Position numbers and translations under genes: made by a program
The notes under the pieces: model-generated
Told to the model about the DNA's origin: nothing
Databases searched by the model: none
Seen by the model: the letters and a program-made list of their open reading frames with translations, nothing else
Origin: Heterotrichella gracilis
Lineage: Eukaryota > Sar > Xanthophyceae > Tribonematales > Xanthonemataceae
DNA: 64,000 bases
NCBI GenBank assembly: GCA_032358255.1
Contig: JAULBX010019522.1
Span: 18,308 to 82,307, forward strand
Direction: 5' to 3'
Shown here: piece by piece, positions 92-24,942 of the stretch
Layout: each line of letters starts with the position of its first letter
Numbering within the stretch: position 1 is the first letter of the stretch

Positions 92-3000
92 ACCATGCAG
101 TGCTCGGCCTTCCTTGCTGGAGCCCTGAAGAGCAAGCTCATCAAGTACGCTTCACTGACACTGTGCACTACATTCCGCAACTTTTCCTAAAAGTTACCGC
201 CACAGAAAGCACCCGCAGTTGCCACACAGAATGCACCCACCGCCCCGCCCGTTATAGGGTTTAGGGGCTAAGGGTCTAGGGCACGGTAAGAAGGTACCTC
301 TAATACCTGTTAGAGCGGTCCACCCTAGGTAGTACAGGCCCCCTCGTGTAGCATTTTAACTTGAGGCAGTTCTTCATGTGTGCACTTGGGGGGTGCAACC
401 CACCAAAACCTCTGTCCACCCAGTCACACACATCCCACCCATACTCTGCCCCTGGCCCACCTCCCCACAACCGCCACCACCACCCACAGGCGCGTGCTCA
501 TCATCGCTTAACTCTAAATCCTAAACCTCAAACCCCATCCGCAGGCGCGCCCTCATCATCGCCCCCAAGACCCTGCTGGCCCACTGGGTGAAGGAGCTTG
601 CGGTGTGCGGGCTGAGGGGGAGCGTGTACGAGTACTATGGGAGCAACACAAACGAGAGGTGGGAGTGGGCAGTGTGTGTGTTTTTGCGTCAGGGCACAAA
701 GCCAGGTACCAAATTTGGTACATCAGACGTGTGAGGTAAAATGGCTGGCTATACCGGTTTCGGCCCCGCCACGGGGCCTCATCAGTAGCCTTTGAAATGC
801 AAGATCTGGGTGCCCCGAAAGGCATCTGAGAATTTCTACTGATGGGATACGAACCTGAGACCTTCCACCGCGAGGGTGTCCGATCGTACCACTGGATCAG
901 TGGGGTTATCATCACTGTATCGGGAGTAATTAATTTCCGATATATGGTTTTTACCTCACGAATTTAGCGTTGGGGGTGCACTCCCTCAGCGCCAAAGCTG
1001 ACCGCTCCCAGGTCGGACTTTTGGTCCCCACCTGGTCACCAAGGGATTTCGGCTAAGCACCGTTCCCAGATGAGAAACAAACACAGAATTTCAAGGGAAA
1101 AACATACACAAATAAAAAGCATTTCGGTAGTGTGCCCTGAAAATTTAGTCTTTAGTGCTGCTGACCACATATGGCATGGTGCTGCACAACATGCCCGTAA
1201 TAGCGGACCATGCTTTTTTGTCACTAAATCGTCAACTGTGGAATTGCAAAACATGCCCATCAAAATTGGATCAACCAATTGTTCACGCAAGAAAAGAACT
1301 CTTCTACTTTGTCAACCCTTTGCACCCAGCGATTGTCCGCTGGAGGAATGCTGCATTTCCCCCCTCATTACTGATAATATGTAATAATTACCCTCCCAGG
1401 GATTGTGCGCTGGGGATGCTCTTCAAGCACGGCGGTGTGCTGCTGACCACCTACGGCATGGTGCTGCACAACGTGGGCAGCCTGTCAGACAGGGCTATGT
1501 ACAACAGGTGGAGCAGGGACAAGGGGGGGGAGCTGGTGTGGGACTGGATGGTGCTGGATGAGGTGGGTGGGGTGTGTGGGAGTGGTGGGTGTGGAGGTGA
1601 TGGGGGGTGGGGGGTGGTTATGGATGGCGCTCGATGAGGTGGGGTGGTGGGGGCGGAGCTGGTGTGTGACCGGGTGCTGTTGGATTGTGGTGGTTCAACT
1701 GCCTGCACTTCCTGGGTACACTCTCCGTTCCCTCAGCTTTGTGGAATGTGCATCCATGGATTTCTGCACATTGAACGCCAAATTCCATTTGACCCCAAAA
1801 TTGACCCTTCCCTCACATGCGCCTTTTGATCTCTCCCCCCCTGCCATTCCCTCCCCAGGGCCACAAGGTGAAGAACCCCAAAACCCAGCTTGTGCAGAAG
1901 CTGGTGCGCATCCCCGTGGGGGTGCGCCTGGTCATCACCGGGACTCCAATCCAGAACAACCTCATGGAGATGCACACGCTGTTCGACTTTGCAAACCCGG
2001 TAGGGCAAGAACCCTAAACGTTGTTGGCCAAAACCCTAAACCATTTTTCCACCGACTTTGCAAACCCGGTAGGGCAACAACCCTTCACCTTGAGTTTTAG
2101 GCCTGGACCTAGGATGAACAAACAAAGATCCCGTAGATAAAAAACCCAAATTGACTGCTAGTGCAGAAGCTGGTGGACTCGAGGACTCGAGGACTCCCAT
2201 TTAGAACAGCCTGATAATAATGCACATGCTCGGATTTACCACATTCAATTCCCATATCTGATTACATCCAATTTCTGGTCGAATCCCAGGGCCTGCTTGG
2301 GGATGCGCGTGACTTCAAGGTCTCTTTTGAGAAGCCCATCACTCGCGGGAACGACCGGCATGCCCCGCAGCGTGTGCAGGCAGTGGGGGCGGGGCGGGCC
2401 GATCAGCTAAGACGCACCATCGCTCCCTTCTTCCTGCGCAGGGAGAAGAAGGAGGTGCTGGGGGGAGGCAGGTGGGTGGTGGTGGTGGTGGTGGTGGCGG
2501 TGGTGTGAGGCGGGGGGGCAGGTGGGCGGTGGTGGTGGTGGTGCCTGGTGGTGTTATAAACACCTAGCCTGATTGGATTAGTTTGGGTCTGGCAGTGCCC
2601 TGGTAGATCATCGTCTGTGGAATACCCTAGTCATGTTTCTGCTGCGGCTCACCATCGCGCCCTCTTTCCTGCGGAGAGGAAGGAGGGGGTGCTGCGGGGA
2701 GGGAGGGGGAGGGGGCATGCAGTCTGATAGCATTGAAGCAGAGTGTTACCCGGCGCTGTGCATAACATCCACACCCCCCCATCCACCCACATTTTCCCTC
2801 CCCGTTATGTAGCACCACAACCCCCACCCTTGCGGTAGGCGGCATCGACCCCCCACCTACTGCCGGGGCTCCTCATGCCTCCTCCTCCTCCGCCCCCCGG
2901 CCCCAAGCCATGGGCCACAAGAACGACCTCATTGTGTGGCTGCGCCTCAAGCCCATGCAGCAGCGCATCTACCAGGTGCGTGGGGGAACCAAACTTAAAC

Positions 3001-6000
3001 CCTAAACCCTAAACCTTTAACCCTACACAAACCATGAGCCACAAGAACGACCTTGTCGTGTGGCTGCGATTCAAACGCATGCAGCAGCGCATCTACCAGG
3101 TGAAAGGGAACCAGACATAAAACCCTAAACCCTTAGCCCTACATCGCAAGGCGTGTGGCAACCGATTGGTCGGCCGATCAGTGCGGCCATGGGCATGCAA
3201 CCCTGTGCACCACTGGTTAATTGTGGCGTGTTTTCCATCCACTCACCGCCACCCTGCAGGCGTTCCTTTCCTCCGATGCCGTCAAGGCTGCCCTCAACCG
3301 CACCAAATCCGCACTTGCTGCGCTCACTGTGCTCAAGAAGGTGTGCGATCACCCAGCACTGCTCAGTGGGAGGGCTGCGCGCCTGGTGGTGGCGGGAGGT
3401 GGGTGGGTGGTTGGGGGGGGGATGCGGGGGCGATGATGAGCTCAACCAGTCGTGCGCACTGTGAACACCTGCAGTTTTTTTATGGCTTGATTGTTGTTTA
3501 TTATGTACATCTTTTAATTGATATTTTAGATGTGGGTTTTCATCCTGCAGAAGTACACGCAGGTCTGCGCTCAGCCTGGCTCAGCCTCGCCAGTTGATTA
3601 TGTCCTGGCGTTGCTCATACCATTCTAAACCATGATGTTGAAATCACAAACCTGAAGCCCTACGCCCGCTCACTACCCGGACTCCCACCCCCCCCAATGC
3701 AGCCAAAAAGAAGGCGGCGCGCGGCAAGGGGGGAGGCCATTACAGCGATGAAGACGAGGAGGAAATCGACACCGACAGTGACAGCAGTGGGGATTCGGGG
3801 TGGCACCAAGGAGGGGGCCAGCGGGGTGGTGCAGGGGGGGCACCGTCAGGGTGGCCCAAAGGGGAGGAAGGGGAGGAGAGCGACGCCGCGTGGGCTGAGT
3901 GGGCTGAGGCAGGGGGGGTGGAGGAGCAGCTGCTGGGGGAGTTGCGGCAGAGGGGTGGGTGGTGGGGAGGGAGTGGGAAGGGAAGGGTGGTGGTGGGGGG
4001 GGTGTGGTATTTGAAAATAATGCATGAATCCTAAACCCTAAATCTAAATTCTACACCAAGGCCTCCCTGCACCTTGAATCTGGAGCCCCGCTCTGGTACA
4101 TGCCTGCGCCCTAAACCCTAAAACCTTTACACCCCCTGCAGGCGCCGATGCCTCCTGCAAAACCGCGTTTGTGCTTTCCCTGCTGACTGACCTGGTGGGG
4201 CGGGGCCACCGCACGCTCATAATCAGCCAGAGCCGCCTCTTCCTGCCCTCATCCCAACCCTTGATGCCCTCCCTAAACCCTGATGACCTAACCCAACATG
4301 CTCAAAAACCCTGCAGGTGCCGATGCCTCCTGCAAGACCGCCTTTGTGCTTTCCCTGCTGACTGATCTAGTGGGGCGGGGCCATCGCACCCTCATCTTCA
4401 GCCAGAGCCGCCTGATGCTGGATGTGCTTGAGGCTGCGGTGGGGGTGCGGGGGTGGCGCTGCCTGCGCATCGACGGGGGGGTGGCCAGTGCAGAGGAGCG
4501 GCAGGTGGGTGGTGGCGGTGGTGGTGGGGGGTGGGGGCTGCCTGCTCATAGGCAAGGGGGTGGCTGGTAGGGAGGAGTGGGTGGTGGTTGTGTGGCGAGT
4601 TCAATGTGGTGAGAATTGGGTGGATGCTGGATTAGAGCGGGGGCGCGCTGCATTTTTCTTGGCCTCTGCATATCTCCCCTCCCAATACCACACATTTTCA
4701 ACGAGGGTGCGTTGCTTTTCTTTTTCTTAGCCTCTGCATATGTATATGCCCACATTTACCCTCCCCTCTACCCTTGCAGGCGCGTGTGCAGCGGTTCCCA
4801 ACCGCCCCCTCCATATGCCCCCAATTCAGTTTTAAGCCCCAACATATTCAACCGCCTTTTCTTCCTTGCAGGCGCGCGTGCAGCGGTTCCAGACCGATTC
4901 CTCCATCCCCCTGTTCCTGCTGACCACACAAGTGGGGGGCCTGGGCCTGACCCTCACAGCCGCAGACAGGTGCGTGCATGGTGGTGGATGGTGGGTGGAG
5001 GCGTGGGAAGGGGGCATGTGAGAAGTGGCGGTGGTGGTGGTGGTGGTAGCAGTGGTGGTGGTGGTGGTGGGTAGTGTCCCCTCTATATCCCCCTGTTCCT
5101 GCTCACCACACAAGTGGGGGGCCTGGGCCTGACCTTGACGGCGGCGGACAGGTGGGTGCATGCTGGTGGGTGGTGGGTGGAGGCGTGGGGAGGGTGCATG
5201 TGCGGTTAATGTGAGAAGTGGAGGTGGTGGTGGTGGTGGTAGTGGTAGTGGTGGTGGTGGTGGTGGTGGGTAGTGTCCCCTCTATCCCGTTGTTCGTGCT
5301 CACTACTCAACTGGGGGGCCTGGGCCTGACCCTGACGGCGGCAGACAGGTGGGTGCGGGGTGGTGGGGCTGGGGATGAGGATGGGGTGGGTGGTGGTGGT
5401 GGCTGCCGTGGCTGCCATGTGCTCTTGTGAGTGGCGGTGGTGGTTTAGATGGTGGTGGTGGGGGGTTGGTAGTGGTGTGTGTGACAACAGGTTTTCCCTT
5501 GCAATGCCCTGGAATTAAACTGAATTAACAACACATTAGGCTACGCTGGTTGGGACATTTAGGACGTTTATCAGACAATAGGGTTCCTAAATGTCTGATG
5601 TTTGGTAGGGTAGAGGGGGCAAAGGGGGTAGGTAAGCCAAGGGCCACATGGGCTGACTTACTCCAGCAGGACCAAAGTCGCGTGGGATCAATGAGTGGTT
5701 CAAACAGTGCCAGGATAGAGCTGCGTGGCGCCGCATATGCAAGACCGACTGCTAATTTGGTTGTATTGCTGGAATGCATGTAACTAACTAACTAACTAAC
5801 AATCAACACATTTTACCTCCCCTTGCAGGGTGATCATAATTGACCCCTCGTGGAACCCGTCCAATGACAACCAGAGCGTGGACAGGGCGTACCGCATAGG
5901 ACAAACCAGGTGCGCAAAACCCTGAACTCTGGATACCAAAACCCTAAACGCGTGCGTATACAGTTCGTACACATATGGCAAACCAGGTGCGCAAAACCCT

Positions 6001-9000
6001 AAAACCCTGGACTCGTATACCCCAAAAGGAGTACGTGTACAGGGCGTACGCGTTGGGAAACCAGGTGCGCAAAACCCTTACCCCTGGACAGCTGAACCCT
6101 AAAGGAGTAAGTATACGCGGCGTACTGGAGTGGCCAAACCAAGTGCACAAACCCCTACATACGCCAGAGCGTACCGGTTGCCCTTGTCACAACCATCCAT
6201 CCAAAAGTGGAGGTTTACAAAAACCCTAAGAACCCTACTCCCTCTTTCAGGGACGTGGTTGTATACCGGCTGATCACGTGTGGCACTGTTGAAGAGAAGA
6301 CCCATGGCCCTTGGCAAAACCCTAATTGGGTCATTGTAAACCCTTAACAGAGTGTGAAAGAACTCGAGCCCTTATTGTGGATTAGAAAACCCCTAGAAGC
6401 ATTCAAATATTTCCATTATAATCACTCCATTATAACCACAAAGCCCTAAGAATTCTACTCCTCCATTCAGGGATGTTGTTGTGTACCGGCTGATCACGTG
6501 TGGGACTGTTGAGGAGAAGATCTACCGGCGCCAGGTGTTCAAGGGGGGCCTGTCAAAGAGCGGGACGGAGGAGGGGGTGCAATTCAAGTACTTTGGGTAC
6601 TCGGTGAGTCTCGGGTGGAGGGTGGAAATATTACGAGAATGACACTTCATTTAAGATGCGTGTTTGCAGACAGGGGGGAAGGGCACGCAGGCGTAGGGTT
6701 TAGGATTGAGAAAAAACGTGTGTTATACTTGGGTGGCAGAGTAGGAGGCGGGATATACAACTACAGGGTGGGGGCTGCTTGCTGTTTAATGGGCTGGAGC
6801 AGCGCTTGTTGAGTGTTTCGCGGACTTGGTGAAGCAGGGTGGAAAAGAATGGGTTGTTTGGATGGTTTGTTTTGATGTGCAGGTGCCTGTTGTGCCTCAG
6901 CTTTTCTCCAGAATTTATGCCCCAAACCCTATGCAGGAGCTGGCTGACTCCTCCAGGGTTTCCCTTTGCCACCCTGAACTCTATGACCAAACCTTAAACC
7001 CCATGCAGGACCTGGCTGACCTCTTTAGGGTTTCCCCCGAGGGACTGCTGCGCTCCGCCACCCCGCGCCAGCTCCATGCCCAGCACTCCTAAACCCTAAC
7101 CCCCCTACCCCAAACCCTGTGCAGGATTTGGCTGACCTTTTTAGGGTTTCCCCGGAGGACCTGCTGCGCTCCGCCACCCAGCGCCAGCTCCATGCCCAGC
7201 ACGCAAGCCAGCGGGTGGCATCGCCTGAGGTAGTGGAACACATCGCGTTCCTGGAGGGGCAGGAGGGGTGCGCAGGTGCGCCGGGAAACCCTAAAACCCT
7301 ACTAATGGGTGCACCCTGAAACCCTGTGTAGGCGTGAGTGACCACAACCTGCTCTTCACCCTAAACCCTAAGCCCTTATGATGATACACCCTAAACCCTG
7401 AACCCTTATGATGATACACCATAATCCCTGCTGAAGGGTACACTAAAACCCTGTGCAGGTGTGAGCGACCACGACCTCCTCTTCACGCAGCAAGCTCCTC
7501 CAGACCCCGACTGTGAGGAAAGCGACCACGTCCACATCCCACCCGCTCGCAGCTCGAACCAGCATTACGGTGCGCTGGCCGGGGCTCAACCCTGTGTTGG
7601 TTAGTTGCTGCAAAGCTGCTAGATGAGCGGTCCACGGTAGATGCACAGTCCTGTGCAGCGTTGCACACCCGTGTACGCCTTGCGCCACCAGTTCCGCCTT
7701 CGACCCTAAACCCTAAATGCAGCAAATGCCACTGCAAAGCCGCCCGCTCACATCCCCAGCCGTGCTCAAGTGGCGAGGCAGGGCACTGGCATTCCATCAC
7801 CATCCACCATCCACGGCTAAGGACCCCTATTTCTTTGGCTCAGGCTCCGGTGTTCCAAAACCATCCACGGCTAATGACCCCTGTTTCTTTGGTCGCATTC
7901 CCAAACCATTCACAGCTAATGACCTGTGTTCCTTTCGCCACAGCCGGAGCCGACTTGCTGCCATTCTATAACCCTAAACCCTAAATCATTTAAGATTAAT
8001 GACCTGTGTTTCAGCCTAAACAATTTAAGAGTAATGACCTGTGTTTCACTCCCCGCAGCTGGAGCCGACATGCTGGCCGATGCCTTTGCGCGCTCGGTCA
8101 ACCTGGTGCCGCCAGGTGGCGCCAAGCAGCGCTTGGACCCGGTAGCAGAGGGGCACAGGTAGGGACTCGATGGAAACCCTAAACCGCTGCTCTAGGTGTA
8201 GGCCCGCCGCCTGGCATCGCTTGGACCCAGCATGAGCCTAAACCGTACAACCTAAATTTGGGGTTTCCATGGGTTCCTATATGCTGCCTATACCTTACAA
8301 CCTAGATTTGGGCATGCCGCAATACACCGCAATACAATAATTTTGTACAGTTTATTGTTACTTTGCAGTATTGACTGCAGGATGTCTTTACTGTGTGCGG
8401 GACACAGTTGGCCCGACTGGCTGAGGTTGAGCATTCTCCTGCCAAACGTGCCATGGCAGCTAAACCCTTAACTGAGACCTGTTGCGCCAGGAGACCCTGA
8501 TCCCTAAATTCTGCGCACGGGATGGAAACTTGCCGCCCACGGCGTGTAAGTTTCCAGTGCCCTGTGTATTTGCAAAGCAGTGCTCTGCGCACTCAAACCA
8601 CCAACACCTAGTTGTTCCTGTGTGCAGGACACAGGCGGCGCGCCTGGCGGAGCTTGAGCGGTCCCTTGCCAAGCAGCGTGGCATGGCAGCCAACAGGAAG
8701 CTGGTGGAGCAGCTGCCGGACAAGGGGGAAAAGATACGGGGCACGATAGAGACGCTGGAGGTGGGTGCTGTGGAGGGTGAAGGGTTTGAGCTAGGGTTTT
8801 GAGCTAGGGGTGAGGGGTGGCAGAGGGTAGGCCCGTGTCTAGTACCCATTGTATCAAGCCATTACCTTACCCTCGTCTTAGCCTTACGTTGTGCGGCTAA
8901 CCCTTCGCCTGTCACCCCTTGGCTGTCCAGGCGGAGGTGTCAATCTCTGAATTACCTAAAGGGTATTACCCCACACGTCAAACCTAACCCAACCCTTTTT

Positions 9001-10057
9001 GGCTCGCCTGGTTTATGCATTAACACCCCTGCTATTACCCTTACCCTCTGCGGCGAACCCTCACCCAACCCTCCGTTGCTCACCAGGCGGAGGTGGCATT
9101 GCTACAGAGCCAGCTGGCGGCAGCTGGTGGTGGTGGTGGTGGTGGTGGTGGTGTGGATGTGGGGCGCCAGCAGCCACCATCCACCACTGGTGGCAGCACC
9201 ACCGCCACAGCCACCACCACTGCCGTCACCCCCACTGGAACCACCACCAGCACCAGGCATAGTGCTGCCCCCACGTCCACCACCACCACTCGCACCCCCC
9301 CCACTACCACCACCACCACCACGCACACCGCCCCCACTATTACCACAACCCGCACCGGCACAACCAGCACCACCACCACCGCCGCCCCCTCTACCACCAC
9401 CACCACCACGCACATCCGCCCCACCACCACCCGCTCCGGCACGACCACCACCACCAGCAGCACCGGCACCACCCCCACCGCCACCACCACCACCAGCAGC
9501 AGTACCACCAGCAGCAGGACGGCGGCTGAACAGAGGGGGGCAAGGGTAGTGGGTGGATCAAACCTGGAACCTCTCACGAGGGGATCCAACCCGGGACCTT
9601 ATGCGTCCACAGCAGGTGCTGCCCATGCTAATACACATGCGGATGGGCGGGGCAGGCGGCCGCTGGCAGAGGCCAATCAGCGCGAGGTGGATCCACCTGG
9701 GTCGAGTGCCGCCAGGTGTCAGGCACTGGGTGCGGGCGAGGTGGCGCATGCCGCGGGGAAGTATAATAAGGTTTTGGAGAAGTACCGGCGGGAGAAGGAG
9801 CTGGGGTTTCCCAAGGGCAACAAGGATGAGGTGCGTGCAAAACCTCAATCTGGAAACTCTAAAGATGACAGGATGGAAGTGTGCACACAGCTTTGAACAC
9901 TAATACGGTAGGCTAGATTGAGACCCCTCCCTTGTGCATAGGTGTTCCGACCCTTACCCTCTCTCCTCCTGCGCAGCTCAAGGCCGCCCTGCTGGCCTAC
10001 CACAACCACCTGCAGTCACTGAAGCAGCGGGAGGCGGTGCCAGGGGGGAGTACCTGA
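92..10057 (+). CDS. CHR24: SNF2-family DNA-dependent ATPase, CHR24/ERCC6L-like (5' end outside window)
   Basis: ATP-driven DNA translocase or chromatin remodeller of the plant CHR24 / animal ERCC6L type, nuclear by family. Eighteen phase-consistent exons: 92-144, 545-658, 1400-1562, 1859-1999, 2290-2470, 2813-2975, 3260-3398, 3703-3954, 4317-4503, 4872-4969, 5829-5909, 6471-6603, 7125-7275, 7459-7569, 8059-8158, 8628-8760, 9087-9830, 9977-10057 (TGA), about 1007 residues. The first codon is the Thr of Walker A (GKT). Motifs seen: RALIIAPKTLLAHW (Ia), LDEGH (II, split by an intron; DEGH as in CHR24), TGTPIQNN (III), TLIFSQSRLMLDVLE (IV), TTQVGGLGLTLTAADR (V), QSVDRAYRIGQTR (VI). An acidic linker (SDEDEEEIDTDSD) lies before motif IV. 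The C-terminal exon 9087-9830 carries a Thr/Gly-rich insert unlike the family and then a basic helix (KVLEKYRREKEL). Start codon and upstream exons are outside the window. The 9087-9830 exon may hide an unseen intron. Confidence 0.93.
747..790 (-). ncRNA. Type I hammerhead ribozyme (self-cleaving RNA) candidate
   Basis: Reading the minus strand from 790: stem I strand GGCTA (790-786), core CTGATGA (785-779), stem II GGCCCC (778-773) with loop GTGGC and GGGGCC (767-762), core GAAA (761-758), then CCGGTA (757-752) and the second stem I strand TAGCC (751-747). All core bases match the hammerhead consensus and the 6-bp stem II is perfect. Stem III would be the self-complementary ACCGGT, too short for a hairpin but able to pair between two molecules, as in double hammerheads of retroelements. 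The cleavage triplet would be GUA, between 752 and 751. It lies antisense in the second intron of the CHR24 gene. Confidence 0.72.
747..915 (-). mobile_element. tRNA-derived SINE-like element carrying the hammerhead
   Basis: On the minus strand about 55 bases upstream of the ribozyme is a tRNA-like stretch (plus 845-910). An A-box-like TGATCCAGTGG lies inside a D-arm with a perfect GATC/GATC stem. About 35 bases on is a B-box-like GGTTCGTATCC, one mismatch from GGTTCGANTCC. The spacing fits an internal Pol III promoter. The anticodon and acceptor stems are not well formed, so this is not a functional tRNA gene. The ends of the element are not defined, and no target duplication or tail was seen. 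Confidence 0.5.
1155..1352 (+). repeat. Decayed copies of CHR24 exon 3 inside the preceding intron
   Basis: 1155-1190 repeats exon positions 1436-1471 (codons for VLLTTYGMVLHN) with few changes and then degenerates. 1325-1352 repeats the acceptor and start of the same exon (CCCAGCGATTGTCCGCTGG against CCCAGGGATTGTGCGCTGG at about 1394). Neither copy has a usable frame. The rest of intron 659-1399 holds the SINE-like element and nothing else recognised. Confidence 0.75.
2010..2230 (+). repeat. Decayed copies of CHR24 exon 4 in the following intron
   Basis: 2054-2075 repeats the end of the exon and its donor (GACTTTGCAAACCCGGTAGG), right after telomere-like AAACCCTAAACC. 2160-2230 repeats an internal part (GTGCAGAAGCTGGTG...ACTCCCATTTAGAACAGCCT), with a small internal GACTCGAG triplication and stop codons. 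Both read as fragments of the neighbouring exon in the same orientation. Confidence 0.75.
2640..2710 (+). repeat. Decayed copy of the end of CHR24 exon 5
   Basis: This stretch repeats positions about 2408-2470 (codons for RRTIAPFFLRREKKEVLG): CACCATCGCGCCCTCTTTCC followed by a gapped, G-rich match. It lies in the same orientation in the intron just downstream of the exon it resembles. Confidence 0.7.
2996..3125 (+). repeat. Near-complete copy of the CHR24 exon 6 tail flanked by telomere-like repeats
   Basis: 3030-3103 repeats 2907-2978, including the ATG GGC CAC AAG AAC GAC start and the CATCTACCAGGTG donor, at roughly 85-90% identity. It is preceded (2996-3025) and followed (3117-3130) by AACCCTAAACCCTAAA-type sequence. 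The unit is exon edge, donor, telomere-like repeat, exon edge, donor, telomere-like repeat. Confidence 0.82.
4137..4240 (+). repeat. Upstream copy of the start of CHR24 exon 9
   Basis: 4137-4235 repeats the acceptor and first about 95 bases of exon 4317-4503 (GCCGATGCCTCCTGCAA...), still open in frame and with its own CTGCAG acceptor. Telomere-like CTAAACCCTAAA precedes it (4020-4125). It could act as an alternative acceptor, but the family alignment needs only the downstream copy. Confidence 0.8.
4770..5350 (+). repeat. Multiple copies of the motif V exon (CHR24 exon 10) with GGT microsatellites
   Basis: The true exon is 4872-4969. Upstream, about 4775-4815 repeats its acceptor and first bases (GCGCGTGTGCAGCGGTTCC). 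Downstream, 5085-5152 and 5283-5348 each repeat its last about 65 bases, including the GCCTGGGCCTGACC core of motif V and the GACAGGTGG donor. The copies are separated by (GGT)n-rich spacers. One exon is therefore flanked by partial copies of both its edges. Confidence 0.85.
5538..5803 (+). mobile_element. 5'-truncated non-LTR retrotransposon 3' end with (CTAA)n tail and 9-bp target duplication
   Basis: The stretch translates in frame to the C-terminus of a LINE reverse-transcriptase ORF (LRWLGHLGRL, then GVGKPRATWADLL), ending GMLLECM-like and stop. It is followed by a CTAACTAACTAAC tail. The 9-bp word CAACACATT occurs at 5529-5537 just before it and at 5804-5812 just after the tail, the expected target-site duplication. 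It sits in the intron between the motif V and motif VI exons of CHR24, in the same orientation. A second fragment of the family is at 52258-52350. Confidence 0.82.
5956..6310 (+). repeat. Copies of CHR24 exon 11 end and exon 12 start with telomere-like repeats
   Basis: Around 5956-6000, 6030-6075 and 6112-6150, parts of the exon 11 tail (codons for RAYRIGQTR) and its donor recur (GGGCGTACGCGTTGGGAAAC, CCAGGTGCGCAAAACCCT), each followed by CCCTAAA-like sequence. At 6245-6305 the acceptor and start of exon 12 (GACGTGGTTGTATACCGGCT) is repeated 229 bases ahead of the exon used, then diverges and acquires stops. Confidence 0.78.
6925..7095 (+). repeat. Two upstream copies of the start of CHR24 exon 13
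   Basis: The exon begins GATTTGGCTGACCTTTTTAG at 7125. Shorter or altered copies start at about 6936 (GGAGCTGGCTGACTCCTCC) and 7008 (GACCTGGCTGACCTCTTTAG). The second runs about 80 bases to CATGCCCAGCAC before a stop and CCTAAACCCTAA. Each copy has a TGCAG acceptor. Confidence 0.8.
7328..7445 (+). repeat. Upstream copy of the start of CHR24 exon 14 and tandem telomere-like spacer
   Basis: 7331-7360 repeats the exon start (GCGTGAGTGACCACAACCTG; codons for VSDHNLLF) with a TGTAG acceptor. Two similar spacers containing CACCCTAAACCCT and CCTTATGATGATACACC (7358-7425) follow before the exon at 7459. Confidence 0.75.
7800..8057 (+). repeat. Tandem copies of the intron end and exon 15 start
   Basis: Phrases of the type ATCCACGGCTAATGACC followed by TGTTTCTTTGG recur at about 7810, 7862, 7905, 7995 and 8025. 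One copy (7918-7965) includes an acceptor and exon start (CACAGCCGGAGCCGACTTGC) matching the true exon at 8059. CCCTAAACCCTAAA lies at 7971-7987. Confidence 0.72.
8190..8475 (+). repeat. Copies of exon 15 tail and exon 16 start
   Basis: 8200-8232 resembles exon 15 positions 8108-8140 (GCCTGGCATCGCTTGGACCC). 8394-8465 resembles the acceptor and first about 70 bases of exon 16 at 8621-8695 (GGACACAGTTGGCCCGACTG), with indels and stops. A further short copy, of the exon 17 start (CCAGGCGGAGGTGTCAATCT), is at 8926-8945. Confidence 0.7.
9123..9535 (+). repeat. GGT/CCA triplet low-complexity tract inside the CHR24 C-terminal exon
   Basis: A (GGT)10 run at about 9123-9155 is followed by nearly 350 bases of CCACCA-type sequence. 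In the gene frame it encodes Gly then a Thr/Ser-rich tract. The other forward frame is Pro-rich and the antisense frames Val- or Gly-rich, all open. These are by-products of triplet composition, not extra genes. Confidence 0.85.
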
Positions 10058-11799
10058 CTCACTGGGAAGGGGATAGCCCTAGTGCCTGCAACCAAGAACC
10101 CTCAACGGGGCAAGCCTGTTTTTAAGTATAAGGCGGAACAGTTCGCCAATCCAGCTGGCCTTCAGCGACCATCTGCAGTCATTCAATGATTCAGTCATTT
10201 AAATTGAAGCAGCGGGAGGCGGTGCAAGGGGGGGGTAACTGACTTGCCAAGCATGGGAGGAAGAGACGCTCAGCACGAGTAGTGGGGTTTATCAAACCTG
10301 CTGAGTGTAAATTGGATACCCTAGGTTGTGGTACAGGCTGGCAGTATACTAGAGGGGCAGCCGCATGAGATCTCAGCGTATTTACAGAGGCCGCCAGTTT
10401 GAAACATTCAAGCGCCGCAGCTGGACAATAGCTGGACCTTAGCATAGGGTAGAGGTCGTGCTGCAGGGAACGGAGGAACCAGACCCTATGGTGCGGACAG
10501 TGCTGCAGCGGGGCAGCATCGGGACCCTAGCATAGTGTAGTGTCAGGGACAGCAGCAAGGGCAAGTGACTGTTAGTGCCACAGCGCATGCGCAAACCCCT
10601 GGCGGCATCAATGGGCGAGCGAATAACTACAACAATTGTAACACAAAACAGTTGCTATCTTGGTGTCACCTGGGAAAATCCCCAGGGGTTCCGAATTGAC
10701 AATATTGTTTGTTAAACGTGCAGGAAAATCCCCTGCACGTTTCTAGTTAATACTTCGGTAAATCATGTCCACTGAAGTTCAACCAGGTCCTGTTGATCAT
10801 GACAGACAAGTGTCATAATACTAGTACTGTCATAATTATTATGCACCGACTCGCAGTGCAGTTACTGTAATACTCAGAATGCTTCCTATGATACATTGTC
10901 ATTGGCATGCTGTGCAGACCACCTGCCCAAATTTGACAAGTACTTGGGTTGGTAACTGTCAATTAATGTGATGGATGACTCAGAGTATAGTACTATAGAC
11001 TGAGTGTCTGCTTTAAGCTAAGTTAGGCTGGCCGCAGAGACAGCTGTAATTAATTACATTCACTTCAGGGATAAAAACTTCTACACAGTAGACTGCGTGG
11101 AGTTGACTGATCAGTTTGCAAAGCATCAATTGAGTTCGTGGCACTGAAGACCTGTCTACTCCTGGCAAGTTGAGAGCGAGTCACGCTGATGCTTCATTGA
11201 TTCAATTGACGAAAAATTAACGGAGATTTGGCTACAGCAGATGGCACCATGCAGGGCTTGATCAACTCCACCCCGAGGGACAAACTGTGACCCTCAAAAT
11301 GTCATTTTGGATCACGAGGACAGGCGTACATCGTAATGTGGATGCAACCCTGCTGTTTATTTATTCCTACTATGCTTCTGTAGCGCGCCATCCCAGGGAG
11401 TGACTGCCCTTAGGGCTAGCTATGGCTTATTGCACGGATGCAGAAATAGAGGCGCAAGTGCGTCAATCAATTGTCATGTGGCGCCACAATGATTGGCAAC
11501 GTGACAGCGTGGCGTCAATGCAGCGACAGTCACTGAGGCTGCTGCAAGGGAAAAATCTGCGCTCATTTATTGTTCCAAACAGTGGATTCAAAACAGGCAC
11601 GCGGCCACAAAGGCACACTACTGCCCAAAATTTAGCTGAAATCTACTCCCCATTTATAACAGTACAACGATGAGAAACCCGCTACATTGAATCCCACCCT
11701 TACAGCAAGTGGAATATAGAACAATTATCCAGACACCTCTTGCTCACAGTGTGGGAGGGAAGCCTCGCTCCCCTCCCCAGCGCCTCTGCTCATGAGCGC
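10058..11799. other. Intergenic region (convergent gene ends) with twin hairpins
   Basis: No gene supported. 10204-10245 is a second copy of the CHR24 last-exon end and stop (GAAGCAGCGGGAGGCGGTGC). Two hairpins with the same AAAATC loop lie at 10669-10686 (CCTGGG/CCCAGG) and 10714-10742 (AAACGTGCAGG/CCTGCACGTTT). An 83-codon ORF at 11422-11673 has no recognisable similarity and is not called. Confidence 0.7.
10669..10742. other. Pair of stem-loops sharing one loop sequence
   Basis: Hairpin 1: CCTGGG (10669-10674) pairs with CCCAGG (10681-10686). Hairpin 2: AAACGTGCAGG (10714-10724) pairs with CCTGCACGTTT (10732-10742). Both enclose the same G-AAAATC-C loop although the stems differ. Function unknown. 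Confidence 0.7.
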
Positions 11800-15692: not shown

Positions 15693-16344
15693 CCCCACAT
15701 TCCATTAAACCTGGCAGGCCAGCCAATTAAAGATGACCCTTGCAAATATTACAAAATTGTTTGCACCTTGAAAAACCTTGTCGGTTACTGTTCAGGCTGT
15801 GCAGTCTCGCCTGTGCATGCAATATTGAAAACAATGGAAAGCAGCCACCCTCTTTGGATACTGTAAATCTGTAACCACGTGGCCTCATTTGGAAAAAAGT
15901 GCAGGGAATTTTTGATGTAAACCATTGCTCACCAGCCCCAACAGAAAGGGCGGCGGTTTATTGACAAGCCAGCAACGCTCTGTTCAACATTGCTGAACGC
16001 TCTGTTCAAAACCATTGAATGCTGTGTTGCAAGGCGACTTATTAAGTGCAGCATTGCCATGCGTACAGCCAAAAAGCAGTACCAAGCAATGACACTGCAG
16101 GTCAAACGCACACATTCAAAATCACATGCTGCCAGGCTCTAAAAATGCCTTCAAATTGTTTGCATATATGCATGCTCATGTGACAGATATGCTCTAACAA
16201 AGCTGACGATGCACTCTGCCCCAGCTGTAAAGCATGGCCGTGCTTATTCGATATCTCTCTGCAACTGGAAAACATGTAAACAGTGCAAATGCAAACAGTG
16301 CAATTAGTGCAATCCGATGCTGTCCTCAGGAAGTGCTCAAAAAC

Positions 16345-16368
16345 CACGCGCGCCCTGGAGCGCGCGTG
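16345..16368. other. GC-rich hairpin
   Basis: CACGCGCGC (16345-16353), loop CCTGGA, GCGCGCGTG (16360-16368): a perfect 9-bp stem in non-coding sequence. No U-run follows, so no terminator call is made. Confidence 0.7.
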
Positions 16369-17111
16369 AAGCGATGCATGCATTGGGTTATTGCAATAAC
16401 ACCTTTGCTGGTTGCCAATGCATCATCTGCCTTTGGCTGGAGCCATACATGTGTGTGAGGGCGCATGGCCAGGGTACCAAGCGTGCGCTCGGTAGTAATG
16501 CAGAAAAGGGTGAAACGGTGTCTGCCATGCATAGCCACACCATGAGTTAAAACCCTAGGTTAGGGTCGCGATGGCGCATGGGCTAGAAGCGAAAAACCCA
16601 ATGGCTTTCAACAAATACATTGTGTATGTTCAAAACCTGACCCCTCATGAAAAAACAACAATGTTCAACAAGTGCGTATCAACAAAAGCTGTAAACCCCT
16701 CCCAAGTGCTTCAGGGTTAAAAAACCGGAAACCCTACACCCTAAACAGTGCGTCAGTTGCTGGTCTGCCCTTTCCATTTTTGTAAGCGTGCCCCGCCCTC
16801 CCTGTCCAAAACAGGAATCCCCTCAGTTGTGGACATTGATGAGCGCAAGGTGAATGCTGCCTCCTCCCCTGTCCTCCCCTACTTCCCCCCCTGTCTTCCC
16901 CTCCTCCCCGCACACCCCCAGTGGGCTCCACCAGCACCATCCCCTTGCTAGGGCAGCTACCCCCCCTGCTCCCTCCTTGAACTGAGAGAGCATATCTGCT
17001 ATATACTTACTCGACCCCACCTGCCCCCCCACCCCACCATCCCACCCACCATCTCCAAGCTCCCAAGGTGCCCCACCTCTGCGAAAAGTGGGGAGGGAAC
17101 CCCGCCCCCTC

Positions 17112-17325
17112 TACAAGCTGTCCAGGTTGAGTGTGGTGCTGTGGGGACTGGATGTTGACCGTCACAACAGCGTTGGAGGTCCATTGCAGGCGGGTGCCAA
17201 AGTTTAGGCTTTAGGGTTTTACGCCCGAAACCCTGCTCCTACAAGCTGTCCAGGTTGAGTGTGGTGTCTGTGGGGGACTGGATGTTGGCCGTCACAACAG
17301 CGTCGGAGGTCCATTGCAGGTGGGT
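17112..17325 (-). repeat. Two extra copies of the CAP-gene last exon end, with telomere-like linkers
   Basis: The last exon tail (17369-17452; codons for LQWTSNAVVTANI to NLDSL and stop) recurs at about 17237-17322, nearly identical, and at 17115-17190, with a frame-shifting indel. The linkers contain TTTAGGGTTTAGGGTTTTACG and CCCGAAACCCTG. The gene model stops in the first copy (TAG at 17369-17371). Confidence 0.88.
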
Positions 17326-17368
17326 GCCAAAGTTTAGGGTTTAGGGTTTTACGCCCGAAACCCTGCTC

Positions 17369-20300
17369 CTACAAGCTGTCCAGGTTAAGTGTGGTGTCTG
17401 TGGGGGACTGGATGTTGGCCGTCACAACAGCGTTGGAGGTCCATTGCAGGCGGGTGCCAAAGCTGCACACCACGTAGAGCAGGGCAGAGTTGGGGAGGGA
17501 AGGATAGGCCCCCTTGCACCCAATGGAGGCGCCGCACCCAACTGCAGAATGCACAGAGACATGGCTGTTGGCAAGGGGGCGGGATTTGTAGGTTATTGTG
17601 AGGCAAGCTTTAAGTGTGGGTAAGTAGAGTTGGGGAGGGAAGGGTAGGCCCCTTGCAGCCACTGGAGGCATCTATCCAACTGCAAACTCTATGGGAAAAT
17701 ACCGGGGAAATGTTGGTGGCAGAGAGGCAAGGGTCCATCTTGAGAAAGCCTATTATTGAGGATTTAATGTTTGGAGCTTGGGGTTTGGGTAGCGCCTACC
17801 TCCCAGGTGGGTGTTCCAGACCATCTTGGCAAAGTTTAGGGTGTAGGTTTCAGGATGAAGGGTTTGGGTGCCGCCTACCTCCCAGGTGGGTGTTCCAGAT
17901 CATCTTGGCAAAGTTCTGCACGTTCCGGTAGTTATTATCCGTGAATGGGGTCGGCGAGAAGGTGTATTGGGCGCGGTTCTTGTACCAGGTGCGGGGGGCG
18001 TCCGCACACGAGGCGTCATACACATCTGTCGCGGTTGTGTTGGCCACGTAGATGATCTGGTCGGCGTCGCCTCGAGCTGCAAACACGGGTTAGGGTTTAG
18101 GGTTTAGGGTGCAATTTTAGTAGGCCATGGTTGTGTTGGCCACGTAGATGATGTGGTCAGCATCGCCTCGAGCTGCACACATGGATTAGGGTTTAGGGTT
18201 TAGGGTGCAAATTTAGTAGGCTATGGTTGTGTTGGCCACGTAGATGATCTGGTCAGCATCGCCTCGAACTGCACACGTGGGGGTTTTAGGGTTTAGGGTT
18301 TGAGATGTGAGCATGGCGGTTCAGGGTCCAGGATTTGAGGTGCACACATGGGGTTTGGGTTTAGGGTTTGGTGTTTAGGGCGATGCGCATGTGAGGCAAG
18401 TTGGTGCAGGCACTGCCTGGCAGGAGGGGCAAAGTAGAACCCTTGGGTAGGGTTTGGGGTGTCGGGTTTAGGATTTGAGCTGGCGCCTATCATCGAAGTT
18501 GGGGTGATGTCGGTCACATAGGTGATTTGTTCACTTAGATGATTTGGTCATCTAACTTGGATGACTTGGTGACATAGCTGATTTAGTCGTTATATGATTT
18601 GGTAATCAGATGATTTCGTAACTTAGATGATGTGATCACATGCATGATTTGGCCGCTTAAATGATTTGGTCACTTAGATGATTGATCACATGGATGATTT
18701 GGCCACTTAAATGATTTGGTCGCTTAGATGATGTGATCAGAAAGATGATTTGGTCAAATAGTTGATTTGGTACAATTGTTTAAAGCCCAGTTGGTGGCTG
18801 TGGTGGCAACGCTTAAGGGTTACAAAACCCTACTAGGGTAAGCGCTGCGCCCAGGGTTTGGGGCAAACACTGCGCCCTGGTGGCTGCTTTGATGCAAGGG
18901 GATGCGACGCAAGGGTTTACATGTGTAGGGTTTGAAGTAGATTACCCACCTGGGTCCATGCCAGGGGAGGTCGAGCACGTGGTTGCCAAGGTCGCAGCCC
19001 AGTTGGTGGCTGTGTTGGCAAGGCTGACGGTCCAGAAGGTGCGCTGGGAGTTGTGGTTGGCCCTCGCGACGTCTATCAGGCCCCAGGTCAGGCGCAGGTC
19101 GCTGCACACCCCTGCGTAGGGTTTTGAGGGACCAGTTTAGGGTCTTGCTTACGCCTTGTAGGGTTGTCGAGAACCAGGTTTGGGATTGGGAGCCTCAATG
19201 ACGCACCACGTCAGGTGCAGGTTGCTGCACATCCTTGCTTAGGGTTTTAGAAACCAGCTCAGGGTTTAGAAACCAGCATGTAGGGTCTCTAGGAATCAGA
19301 ATAGGATTTGGCAACAATGATCGAGCTCCAAGCCCTCGCCTGGTGCAGGTTGCTGCAAAACACGGGTACAAACCCTAGAAACCCTAGAAGGATGGCCCTA
19401 GAAACCCTACTAGGGTCTCACGCAGGCGCCCACCTGATGTGACAGCCATGGCCGGCGGTGGTGGTGCGGGTGGCCCCCCTCCCCCACTGGAGGGGGTGGC
19501 GGGTGGCGGTGGGGACTGGGCTTTGGGTGGTGGTGGGGAATGGGTTATTGGCGGCGGTGGGGAGTTGTTGGCGGTGGGGGGTGGGGACTGTGTTGCATCT
19601 GGTGGTGGGCTGTCGGCTGGGGGGGCATCGGGGGGCGGTGGGGATTCGGTGCCAGCCTGCATGGGTGGTTGTGGTAGTTGTAGTGGGTGGAGGATGGGGG
19701 ATAAGGGGGCGCCTCTGGATGCATGGATGGTACAAAACCATCGGGAAACAGGATTATCTGCAACTGGAACGGGCAATAGCCAAGCACATGTGTACGGGGC
19801 CATGCTCGCAGGTATGCTGTCGGGGCCTTTTCGTGCATGGATACAAACCCTTGGTTAGGGCATTGCAAACACCCACCGGTGGGGGTGACTGGCGGGGCGG
19901 TGGGGGTGGGCGCGATGGCCGGGGCGGTGATGGTGGTGAGGGTGGTGGTGATGGCTCATAGTCTTCGTAGTAGTAGTAGTGGGGTGGTGGTGGTGGTGGC
20001 GGGGGTTGAGGGGGCCGGTGGCGCCATTTGGGTGGGGGAGGCGGTTGTACCGCTGGTGGTGGTGACTGCAGCACCAGTGGTGGGGGTGACTGCAGCACTG
20101 GTGGTGGTGGGGGGGGCTGGCTGGTGGAGGTGGGGGTGCTGCTCCTTGGTGGGGGGTGTGGCGGGGGGTTGGACTTGCGGGCCAGCGGTGGGGGGCGGCG
20201 CGACGGGTGGGGTGGGGGGTGCCTTTTGGTGGGCGGCGGTGGGTGTTTTTTGGTGGGGAGAGGTGGGCGCCGTTTGGTGGGTGGTGGTGGGCGTTTGTTG

Positions 20301-22643: not shown

Positions 22644-24942
22644 GGTTGGTTACAGAGAAACCCTTCAGCTGAGCGTCCTGCTGGCAGGTGTTACCCTAGG
22701 GTCCAGCGTGGTGGCAACTGGCTGAAACCCTAAGGAAGGGTTTCCCCACCCGGTATGGGTGGGAGACCGCAGACGAGCGTTTCGGTAGCTGCGCCTGCTG
22801 AGCCAGGCCTGGTGCCAGGTTCCAGACCCTTCACAAGGGTATTGATCCAGCTGGGCGAGAGGCAGGCAAAACAAACCGGAGCACTGCCTGCGATTGATGT
22901 AGACCCTAGATTAGGGTATCAGGCTGCATGCACGCAAGCCATCGCTTGGTTATCGGTCCTGCGCCGGCAGTGAGCGAGGTTGTGGTGACCAGCATGGGTG
23001 TTTGGTAGGGTTTTGGGAGGGTTTTATGTGGGTGCTTGGGGATGGTTGAGGGGAGAACGCACACTGTACCTAGGGCAGGTAAAATGTATCCCAGATATGG
23101 ACAGGGTAATTAACAATCTAGATGCCTGTACTGCTTTGCTGACGACATCCGTGTCAATTCGGTCAGTTTGGACCAAACTGCATGCATATGCATCCAAGCA
23201 TTTCTTTAGACGTACCACCACCTTTGTAACCTATGCTGGTCACCAGTAAAGACTTAATTTAGTAACAGCCAACGACAAGCAGTTGCAAGAGAGTGGCTCG
23301 TTGAACGGTTCGGGGTACATTGCGATAGGCAAGACCTCGCAGGTTGGTACAACCTAATCCGGAACAGGTATTGTCAGGGCGTCCCGTGCTTCAAGCAAAT
23401 TAACAGGACTGGGATAGGCTGTGCTGATAAAACTGACTAGAAGACCTTATGCGTGTGTGCCGGCTTTTGTAAACTCCTTTCGTAAGTGTGCTAGCGAGAT
23501 TACTGAGCAGATGTCGCCCACCAAGAATCACGAGAATGCGTTTCGAAGGGCGCAAACAGACCTTTGCCATTCCCAATCAGAAGAGACTACCAGACGAACT
23601 AGCCAAAGTGTCAAGTCCCAGGTGGATCCCTTTGGCCCAGTTTGCGTTATGGCAGTGCTGTAGCAGGCGACCATGCATGTGGTTTTGGCGGGGGAAAAGG
23701 GGTCCGGGTTCAAAAGTTCCCAAGCTCTTACAGTAGAGGCTGAGCGTACCTGGATGTTCGCAAGCTGAAATCCCTCTTGTACGTGAAGTATCTAGCGGTT
23801 TCTTATATCTACAGGCTGCCCTAGCTGGGCTTGTCCTCGATACGTACAACAGCTGTGCAGACGCGCCCACATGTGGCGGTGTGGGGGGCAATTCACGAGA
23901 GTTCGGCAAGCAGCAGCCAAGTCTGGAGTGCAGAATACCACGCTGTCGACATGTGTTGCCATGCCCGAGTGTTTGGCGTGCGAAAGCTGGCAAAAGCAGG
24001 CAAAACAAGGCCTTCACCAAACAACCCGCTGCAACACCGGCTGCGCGGCGGCCTTGTGACGGGCGGCGGCGTGCCCCCCAGCGATGCAGCGCATCTGGGT
24101 CCGCCGAGTCACCCCGCTCCTGCCGCGCGTAAAGTGCCAAATTTTGGCACTTTTGTCATGCCTCCGTGGAACTTTTGATCACATGGGCAGGCCATGTACT
24201 GCACTTGATCCTACATGCACCATAGCATTGCGACAAGCAAGCACTTGGACATGGTGGCTGTGTCCCGTTGTATATTTGTGGTTATGGCCCACACAGAAGT
24301 GGTGCTTTTGGCTGATTTTAAGCAAATCTTCATGTGATGGCTGGAATCTGGACCGCGCGCGCACCAAAAGCGCAGACTTGTCAGCCAAGGGTGCATCATA
24401 TCACGACAGGCGGACTCAGCTGTGTCACGCCCCACCCATCGCGTCACCAAATCACGACAAGCTGGTCCCCCATTGGCCGCCAGAGTGGCAGCATGCTGAC
24501 GTGTCAGCACCACAGAGTGGACTACGCTGACATGGCAGATACGTAGATAGTGATCGTCTCCGACCGCGTTCCCCGGCGTTGCCCGGCGCTGCGCGGCTCC
24601 CCGGCATATTATCATGCCCAAATCCCATGAACAAATTGCGGTACGGGCCGCTGGGGATGCGAGCCCTTGCCCCGCCGCAAGCTGCGGCGCTTGTGCACCA
24701 AGTGCTCTGTTTCTCAGGCAGCTATATAAGCGACCGCACTCTGCCACACCCAACACAAACCAGTTTGCTTGCCTAGTTCGACACACCTGCTCAAACCTCA
24801 CCGCGCTGCCCTTGCCGGTACCCCTGTGATCTGTTACACTAAAGCTTTTAGCTGCTGCACACTCTCTGCTGCCCTCATCGGCAACGCGGGAGACTTGTAG
24901 CACACTGCCGTTCCCTGCAACAACACTGGCAAAGTGAGCGCC
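22644..24942. other. Divergent promoter region between the two proline-rich protein genes
   Basis: 2.3 kb, no gene supported. It contains a 23-base perfect palindrome (24131-24153), a 16-base palindrome with a TGACGTG core (24494-24509), a GC-rich block (24035-24125) and a TATA box (24724). ORFs of up to 251 codons on both strands show no recognisable domain. Confidence 0.6.
24724..24731 (+). promoter_or_regulatory. TATA box of the modular Cys-rich wall-protein gene
   Basis: TATATAAG in the context AGCTATATAAGCGACC, 212 bases before the ATG at 24943. With a start about 30 bases downstream the 5' leader would be near 190 bases. Confidence 0.6.

Follow-up and report, generated by a model that had tools for sequence, protein, structure and literature searches.

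Exon-edge copies in an SNF2-family gene

Why should the introns of a gene hold partial copies of that gene's own exon edges, many of them beside telomere-like repeats? The question arises from the window analysed here, a stretch of 64,000 nt from the photosynthetic eukaryote Heterotrichella gracilis (contig JAULBX010019522.1, positions 18,308 to 82,307), whose start truncates a gene for an SNF2-family remodeller at 95..10057 on the + strand. This is the CHR24-like gene of an initial annotation made from the sequence alone, and the name 'CHR24' is that annotation's label. Our home-made gene finder, which was run without RNA-seq, modelled 16 exons at 95-8802 and further + strand coding exons as far as 10057, their join being putative; the spliced model of 746 aa matches both PF00176 and PF00271. 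The copies in this gene, with identities to their source in brackets, and the second copy-bearing gene of the window are as follows.

1155..1193, + strand: downstream-exon type, copied from 1437-1475 (36/39); as the source lies 38 nt into the exon, no acceptor is included
2053..2092, + strand: copy of 1984-2023 (36/40), which spans the upstream exon end, the donor and the telomere-like start
2650..2709, + strand: copy of upstream exon end 2415-2475 (50/61)
3028..3102, + strand: copy of upstream exon end and donor 2904-2978 (66/75), telomere-like sequence on both sides, tandem spacing 124
4134..4238, + strand: copy of acceptor and downstream exon start 4309-4413 (96/105)
4772..4814, + strand: copy of acceptor and downstream exon start 4864-4906 (37/43), lacking a telomere-like 6-mer in the 60 nt around it
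5087..5160, + strand: first copy of exon end and donor at about 4905-4978 (67/74), spacer GGT-rich
5279..5356, + strand: second copy of exon end at about 4905-4978 (66/78), spacer GGT-rich
5966-6000, 6040-6078 and 6120-6156, + strand: copies of exon end and donor 5888-5923, spacing 77-78, telomere-like sequence present
6246..6300, + strand: copy of acceptor and downstream exon start 6466-6520 (50/55)
6925..6964, + strand: older copy of acceptor and exon start 7113-7152 (32/40)
7004..7086, + strand: copy of acceptor and downstream exon start 7120-7202 (76/83), with CCTAAACCCTAA immediately 3'
7325..7359, + strand: copy of acceptor and downstream exon start 7452-7486 (30/35), followed by telomere-like repeats
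8391..8463, + strand: copy of downstream exon start 8618-8693 (60/76)
10205..10244, + strand: copy of the coding-sequence end 10020-10059 (37/40), beyond the stop codon, non-intronic and without splice site
16337..23148, - strand: second copy-bearing gene, 5 of its 7 introns affected, e.g. at 21012-21071, 21545-21604, 18225-18267 and 17800-17836

The initial annotation had reported exon-edge copies in at least ten introns of the SNF2-family gene, and we found them in 11 of 15; all seven of its coordinate pairs are true direct repeats by identities computed pair by pair. It had further described the copies as carrying a splice site and adjoining telomere-like repeats. Six of the seven are indeed intronic with a splice site, but the copy at 10205-10244 lies past the stop codon (10057) and repeats the end of the coding sequence; likewise, telomere-like 6-mers lie within 60 nt of four of the seven, but those at 5087, 5279 and 10205 have none, the first two being flanked by GGT-rich tracts. 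Among 22 pairs hand-picked in this gene, five of which are weak (scores 27-34), such a 6-mer lies within 60 nt in 15. Copies additional to those first reported include 2053-2092, 2650-2709, 4772-4814, 5966-6156, 6925-6964, 7325-7359 and 8391-8463, among others.

Copies recur in other genes but are scarce between them

We then examined a 288-kb sample of the genome holding 354 introns and 57 intron-bearing genes. The adjacent exon edge was repeated in the same orientation in 75/354 introns, which is no genome-wide rate since the sample over-represents SNF2 loci and loci with telomere-like tracts, and in 26/57 intron-bearing genes, confirming that the copies are real and reach past the SNF2-family gene. 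In this test each 60-nt exon edge was compared with its adjacent intron and a score of at least 40 was required, a level reached by the upstream exon end in 40/354 cases and by the downstream exon start in 37/354. The corresponding figures were 0 and 1/354 for reversed introns, 0 and 0/354 for reverse complements, and 0 and 1/1062 for introns of other genes. The same orientation originally claimed for the copies was therefore borne out, direct copies being far above the reverse-complement control. Excluded from the sample were locus L006 after training (it overlaps L005), L009 (a repeat of the window), 18/30 SNF2 loci, genes with less than 200 nt of coding sequence and introns shorter than 60 nt, whilst internal exons below 30 nt were merged into introns. 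Because the gene finder scores some intronic copies as exons, as seen in L049 and L053 from peptide blocks that recur, under-counting of copies is likelier than over-counting.

The copies cluster by gene, occurring in 11/15 introns of the SNF2-family gene versus 0/11 of another gene in the window. By locus class they were found in 16/41 introns of the window, 36/100 of the 10-kb SNF2 loci, 9/71 of the small SNF2 loci, 6/19 of loci chosen for tracts, 3/31 of loci chosen for repeats and 5/92 of arbitrarily picked loci. A general tendency of this genome towards local duplication is disfavoured, as intergenic windows scored.010 for direct and.010 for inverted copies (n=3565), and duplication events there amount to.11 per kb; intergenic here means the remainder left by the gene finder, which could contain mobile elements or missed genes. 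An assembly artefact carries a negligible probability, the copies being diverged and spread over many contigs, with no second version of the SNF2-family gene locus in the assembly.

Both intron ends are equally affected (44 and 41 of 85 copies). In nearly all copies, upstream-exon ends with their donor lie near the 5' end of the intron and downstream-exon starts with their acceptor near its 3' end. This layout bears on whether exon sequence duplicated in tandem gave birth to the introns themselves. A short intron in L050 (79 nt) and another in L056 (129 nt) do finish in a copy of the upstream exon, as such a birth would have it, but apart from these exceptions the expected arrangement, a 5' part derived from the downstream exon and a 3' part from the upstream exon, was absent in nearly all copies, which show the opposite layout, and we consider this origin extremely improbable. 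In the portions of PMC11782384 and PMC3443670 available to us, direct repeats at intron borders and around splice sites are tied to break repair or tandem-duplication intron gain; those repeats of 4-30 bp pair both borders or form the intron itself, whereas here a single junction is duplicated into its own intron.

The copies decay neutrally

For the analysis of decay and all later tests, 6/85 copies with an exon side below 25 nt were removed. The copies decay neutrally, with mismatches by codon position of.089/.085/.185, and are therefore neither used exons nor assembly artefacts. Functional alternative exons are disfavoured by the codon-position and indel patterns of the copies. Exon-side identity ranges from.68 to 1.00 (85 pairs), and copied donors score 4.2, compared to 7.2 for real donors and -1.0 for other intronic GTs.

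The initial annotation had described a recurring unit of exon edge, splice site and telomere-like repeat. Specificity for the exon edge is not supported, as intron-only local duplications are also present in copy-bearing genes, with few in intergenic DNA; they speak against a process aimed purely at exon-intron junctions and suggest that the exon-edge unit is in good part what stays recognisable.

The edge-to-edge spacing within the 85 pairs has a median of 127. Most pairs are separated by a non-homologous spacer, partly GGT-rich or AT-rich, and clean tandem arrays (5888-6156; L001) are a minority. The resulting order of duplicate, spacer and duplicate would also be left by small introner-like mobile elements, which would then constitute the spacer and have long target-site duplications; however, the spacers look unrelated by eye, save for telomere-like or simple sequence, and vary widely in length, making such elements highly improbable.

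Telomere-like sequence sits at the join

Six contigs start with TTTAGGG repeats, and introns carry internal tracts of this same repeat, that is, short interstitial telomeric sequences made of the species' own telomere repeat. Intronic telomere-like heptamers and triples are mostly short and imperfect, and heptamer density in introns far exceeds that in exons or intergenic DNA. For the tract tests, loci chosen for tracts were removed as well, leaving 73 copies, of which 72, 70 or 61 had sufficient sequence.

Telomere-like coverage at the exon-side breakpoint was.22, against.06-.07 at places in copy-less introns matched by distance and gene (0/1000 resamplings), and without the window it was.211 vs.063 (56 copies, 20 genes). 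Among 61 pairs, a tract occurred at the junction only in 16 and after the copy only in 1 (12 and 0 without the window). The tract is thus mostly absent from the equivalent place after the copy, as expected of filler made during repair, although in 33/61 pairs the join (20 nt) holds no telomere-like 6-mer. A heptamer lay within 60 nt of the copy in 39/73 cases, versus a fraction of.384 for windows drawn at random from copy-less introns in the same genes. Counting any tract per intron, with length matched, 39 copy-bearing introns were observed to carry one against 33.0 expected (p=0.044), or 28 against 23.6 without the window (p=0.079). The link between tract and copy therefore holds by position, whereas by mere presence per intron it is weak. 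The contrary outcome foreseen by the initial annotation, namely no excess of copies near tracts, is at odds with the breakpoint excess in the 288-kb sample.

Could the tracts have come first? Short telomere-like tracts 10-40 nt inside splice sites may be fragile and provoke tandem duplications nearby, which would make the tract the cause. Copy-less introns do hold tracts 10-40 nt inside splice sites, and in copy-less introns of the same genes tracts peak 10-50 nt inward of the 5' splice site, at.11-.13. Copy frequency follows telomere-like coverage over 37 genes (rho 0.77; 0.67 on copy-less introns only, so that these too predict it), with the proviso that GC3 and intron length also correlate and that rho may include their effects. 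Rearrangement promoted by interstitial telomeric sequences is, moreover, the subject of PMC11626172, to go by its available portions. Nevertheless, a tract inside the duplicated unit should recur after the copy, in conflict with the 16 junction-only and 1 after-only cases, and we hold this order of events to be rather unlikely.

Another possibility is slippage or unequal exchange in repeat-rich introns, with fast decay of the intron part, the tracts being common low-complexity sequence there. The clean tandem arrays, several GGT-rich spacers and the flank homology seen in 38/76 unmasked pairs (11/16 of fresher pairs vs 4/18) would fit, but masking telomere-like bases drops this homology to 17/76, the copies have too few substitutions for such complete loss of the intron flank, and common tracts leave the distance- and gene-matched breakpoint enrichment unexplained. 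This explanation thus seems unlikely.

The tracts might instead be RNA splicing signals enriched in introns for their function, with the copies incidental. Their density in introns would agree with this, as would the peak of CCCTAAA 10-40 nt ahead of the acceptor. However, tracts of the two strands reach the same density inside 5' splice sites, an outcome expected of a DNA-level process, many genes are almost free of tracts, and the enrichment sits at duplication breakpoints. An RNA-level motif as the main cause is disfavoured by the strand symmetry at the 5' end, and we rate this account as very unlikely. Pairing of a 5' TTTAGGG with a 3' CCCTAAA within one intron gave counts of 23/24/34/59, an apparent mild excess.

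A break-repair reading

We favour, with a probability of about 0.5, the reading that the copies are scars of break repair in genes, in which a staggered break yields duplicate, filler and duplicate with telomere-type processing of the ends. Nicks on either side of an exon-intron junction would produce a staggered break whose complementary overhangs measure from some tens of nt up to about 130 nt. With both overhangs filled in and the ends joined, the stretch between the nicks would be doubled in the same orientation. Telomere-type sequence may be added to the ends before or during fill-in, so that telomere-like filler would stand between the duplicates at many joins. Of the two junction copies, one would still work under selection while the other, now intronic, would decay neutrally, the outcome being a decoy exon edge with its splice site and a longer intron; arrays would stem from repeated events.

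That breaks cause the copies is what we infer from these patterns, and the enzymes would presumably be telomerase, placing repeats on 3' tips, and CST-Pol alpha, carrying out the fill-in. The common mechanism proposed by the initial annotation is upheld insofar as copies and tracts co-occur, gene by gene in the rho values above and with the tract at the breakpoint, while its telomerase is a conjecture; its order of events, telomerase filling and then tandem duplication, has no advantage, as a single event doing both fits equally. If both tips were filled, tracts in head-to-head order should be in excess, and they were not (37 GC vs 38 CG). By itself, the break model leaves the sparing of intergenic DNA and of many genes unexplained. 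A further step, tentative and open to considerable doubt, is that in this lineage breaks in a class of genes are habitually handled by the chromosome-end machinery, with telomerase extension followed by CST-Pol alpha fill-in, which leaves its scars at intron ends. Introns would then go on growing and gaining decoy splice sites from this source, and the record of break repair could be read at their ends.

One signature here joins small tandem duplications, interstitial telomere-like repeats and intron growth, and can be tested wherever close relatives have been sequenced. Introns act as a recorder of events: since the conserved exon gives the original state of each copy, breakpoints and the relative ages of copies can be worked out for each gene. 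As natural decoy splice sites, the copies are also of use for studying how the right site is chosen.

Comparison with known systems

The comparisons that follow refer to the available portions of the cited papers. CST-Pol alpha-primase fill-in of 3' overhangs yields small tandem duplications at induced breaks in mammalian cells (PMC8355091). The likeness lies in short, local, same-orientation duplications ascribed to staggered breaks and in an enzyme complex that also fills telomere ends. Our copies are likewise local same-orientation duplications of tens to about 100 bp but are seldom head-to-tail, the spacer being at most 10 nt in only 14/85 pairs; new here are the telomere-like filler at the join, the concentration in the introns of certain genes and the copying of splice junctions.

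Telomeric repeats can be inserted at breaks, sometimes with target duplication, which was recorded at 6/130 rodent, 4/25 primate and 3/66 horse interstitial telomeric loci (PMC2246262, PMC7215372). Those loci share with ours short telomere-like tracts at break sites and some target duplication. In humans, none lies in exons and 31% lie in introns, matching random insertion (same sources), whereas here the tracts are several-fold denser in introns, duplication is common and tracts sit at the joins of exon-edge copies.

Finally, strand annealing repair duplicates nearby DNA, leaves filler at breakpoints and can copy splice-site regions, human repair donors with partial exon/intron stretches numbering 4/824 (PMC2671141). 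Closely linked duplications recall our copies, and the filler-like tract at the join may correspond to the breakpoint filler; our copies differ in affecting 75/354 sampled introns, in a single orientation and with telomere-like filler.

Exon-edge copies in introns of an SNF2-family gene

The gene at 95..10057 on the forward strand of the window is predicted to encode an SNF2-family protein: its spliced model of 746 amino acids is free of stops, with matches to PF00176 and PF00271, and PDB relatives of its product include ERCC-6 and a fungal 'helicase-like protein'. The genome comprises 68.5 Mb in 903 contigs, the window being part of contig C196, and its 43 matches to PF00504 (chlorophyll-binding family) indicate a photosynthetic eukaryote. 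The telomere repeat is TTTAGGG: contigs C70, C140, C526, C609, C717 and C770 each carry a perfect (TTTAGGG)6 no more than 10 nt from their start, although at least one such run, in C640, is internal.

Introns of this gene had been described as holding copies, that is, same-orientation duplicates of the adjacent exon edge with its splice site, many of them adjoining telomere-like repeats. Indeed, all seven coordinate pairs listed in the initial annotation are real direct repeats, and six of them are intronic copies of this kind; the other lies beyond the stop codon. Telomere-like 6-mers occur within 60 nt in four of the seven but not in the rest, and in 15 of 22 hand-picked pairs from this gene (5 of the 22 being weak). 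Most pairs have a non-homologous spacer between the duplicates (10 nt or less in 14/85), making duplicate, spacer, duplicate the commonest layout, and some clean arrays occur too.

10205-10244, copy of the coding-sequence end, 3' of the stop codon and so not intronic
5888-6156, clean array
4905-5356, clean array

An intron of the same gene also holds a dispersed repeat of about 270 bp (5533-5801) with TAAC repeats at its end, present in at least 39 other genomic places at 89-96% identity (40 of 989 first-look candidates scored). At 9120-9530 the gene finder calls a minus-strand exon, probably wrongly, in an ACC/CCA-rich low-complexity stretch.

Copies are frequent in some genes and behave as neutral sequence

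With a simple gene finder trained on 43 sequences (288 kb) of the same genome we compared 60-nt exon edges with the adjacent intron in 354 introns from 57 genes. At score 40, copies were found for 40/354 upstream-exon ends and 37/354 downstream-exon starts, against 0 and 1 of 354 in reversed introns, 0 and 0 of 354 in reverse complements, and 0 and 1 of 1062 in introns of other genes. At score 36, 75/354 introns and 26/57 genes carried a copy. The spread is uneven: 11/15 introns in the SNF2-family gene, 36/100 in five 10-kb SNF2 loci elsewhere and 5/92 in eight arbitrarily picked loci. Two further genes of the window differ likewise.

16337-23148, minus strand, gene with copies in 5/7 introns (286-aa model)
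24943-30406, gene of 12 exons whose cysteine-rich repeat protein has linkers rich in proline (PPSPP)

The latter has exon-edge copies in 0/11 introns, though it lies near two genes full of them. The 286-aa model had no Pfam match; the long introns of its gene contain several intron-only duplications.

In 79 copies the mismatch rates at codon positions 1/2/3 were.089/.085/.185, 42/58 indels were of 1 nt and spacing modulo 3 was 25/28/26. This is what is expected of neutral copies paired with a constrained exon, the third-position excess because third positions change in exon and copy alike. Ungapped identity declines gradually along the exon side but steeply beyond the splice site (.82,.54 and.43 in successive 6-nt bins for upstream-edge copies, those of exon end and donor). 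Flank homology was present in 38/76 pairs, or 17/76 with telomere-like bases masked; when masked, it was present in 6/16 of the freshest and 1/18 of the oldest.

When 40-nt windows were scanned for local partners, direct ones turned up for.163/.149 of junction/exon-edge windows and for.060 of intron windows near an edge. The inner-intron rate was.128, with the copies themselves counted in that class; for inner-exon windows it was.035 and for intergenic ones.010. Inverted partners ranged from.000 to.010 across the classes. Duplication events per kb numbered 1.03 in introns of copy-bearing genes,.18 in those of copy-less genes and.11 between genes, and 19 of the 22 intron-only events away from edges and copies (40 kb) lay in copy-bearing genes. 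The process is thus genic rather than general, yet not confined to exon edges; conservation of one of the two copies keeps it visible there.

Telomere-like tracts are enriched at the join

The proposed telomere link holds by position at the breakpoint; by presence per intron there is a slight rise (length-matched p=.044; p=.079 without the window). Tract coverage in the 10-30 nt adjoining the exon-side breakpoint was.21-.22; copy-less introns gave.06-.07 at matched distance, and 0/1000 resamplings reached the observed value. In 20-nt windows of 61 pairs, a tract stood at the join, between the duplicates, in 28 and at the corresponding position beyond the copy in 13 (join only 16, after only 1, both 12, neither 32). 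Without the window, coverage was.211 vs.063 (56 copies, 20 genes) and join-only against after-only 12 to 0; without the five SNF2 loci,.236 vs.076 (36 copies) and 6 to 1. The tract resembles filler of the join more than cargo of the unit, although indels blur the corresponding position. A heptamer lay within 60 nt of 39/73 copies; for random windows in copy-less introns the fraction was.384 in copy-bearing genes and.224 in other genes.

We give roughly even odds (about 0.5) that the structure reflects repair of staggered breaks with filler. Complementary overhangs would be filled in, and end-joining would then leave the stretch between the nicks duplicated. In mammalian cells, CST-Pol alpha-primase performs overhang fill-in and also fills in telomere ends (PMC8355091), and insertion of telomeric repeats at breaks, at times duplicating the target, is known from mammals (PMC2246262, PMC7215372). 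If telomerase acted on the same 3' tips, the left unit would be followed by TTTAGGG or the right one preceded by CCCTAAA; either is compatible with the strands seen at joins in upstream-edge copies (8 C, 9 G, 1 both, 21 none), and downstream-edge copies (acceptor and exon start) have 13 C, 0 G and 21 none. The G-then-C excess among neighbouring opposite tracts predicted by two-tip filling was not seen (37 vs 38), and 33/61 pairs have no tract in the 20 nt at the join. We hold telomerase and CST as the enzymes with less confidence than repair with filler itself. The main rival reading, in which tracts already lying close to splice sites are fragile and set off the duplications, seems to us unlikely.

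Across 37 genes, copy frequency follows tract coverage (rho.77;.67 with coverage from copy-less introns alone), an effect not separated from the correlations with GC3 (.54) and intron length (.53) in 39 genes; the higher GC3 of genes with more copies hints at a tie to recombination or expression. Introns (111 kb) contain 129 CCCTAAA and 67 TTTAGGG, 40 of these heptamers coming from tract-chosen loci, exons (75 kb) 0 and 1, and intergenic sequence (89 kb) 9 and 8; at arbitrary loci the contrast is smaller (coverage.034 in introns vs.018 between genes). Over 140 introns from tract-rich genes, the two strands occur at equal density 10-40 nt inside the 5' splice site, which suggests a strand-neutral DNA process; in the last 40 nt before the 3' splice site nearly all heptamers are CCCTAAA, which may reflect avoidance of TTTAG/GG, a ready-made acceptor.

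Each ingredient of the finding is known. Small tandem duplications (PMC8355091) and telomeric repeats (PMC2246262, PMC7215372) at breaks are on record, as are intron borders with short direct repeats (PMC11782384); repair-mediated nearby copies seldom take in splice sites (partial exon/intron donors 4/824; PMC2671141). For the combination of these, common in introns of some genes and scarce between genes, we found no description in the open-access papers searched.

Copied splice sites as decoys

Splice dinucleotides are kept in 35/44 upstream-edge and 29/41 downstream-edge copies. Copied donors score 4.2 (real 7.2, other GT -1.0) and copied acceptors 3.1 (real 6.9, other -1.3), and on these scores the copied sites are putative decoys. 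At two loci elsewhere in the genome, the 3' ends of a 79-nt intron (L050) and a 129-nt intron (L056) each duplicate the upstream exon, and the copy itself provides the CAG acceptor, as would be expected if the intron boundaries arose through tandem duplication.
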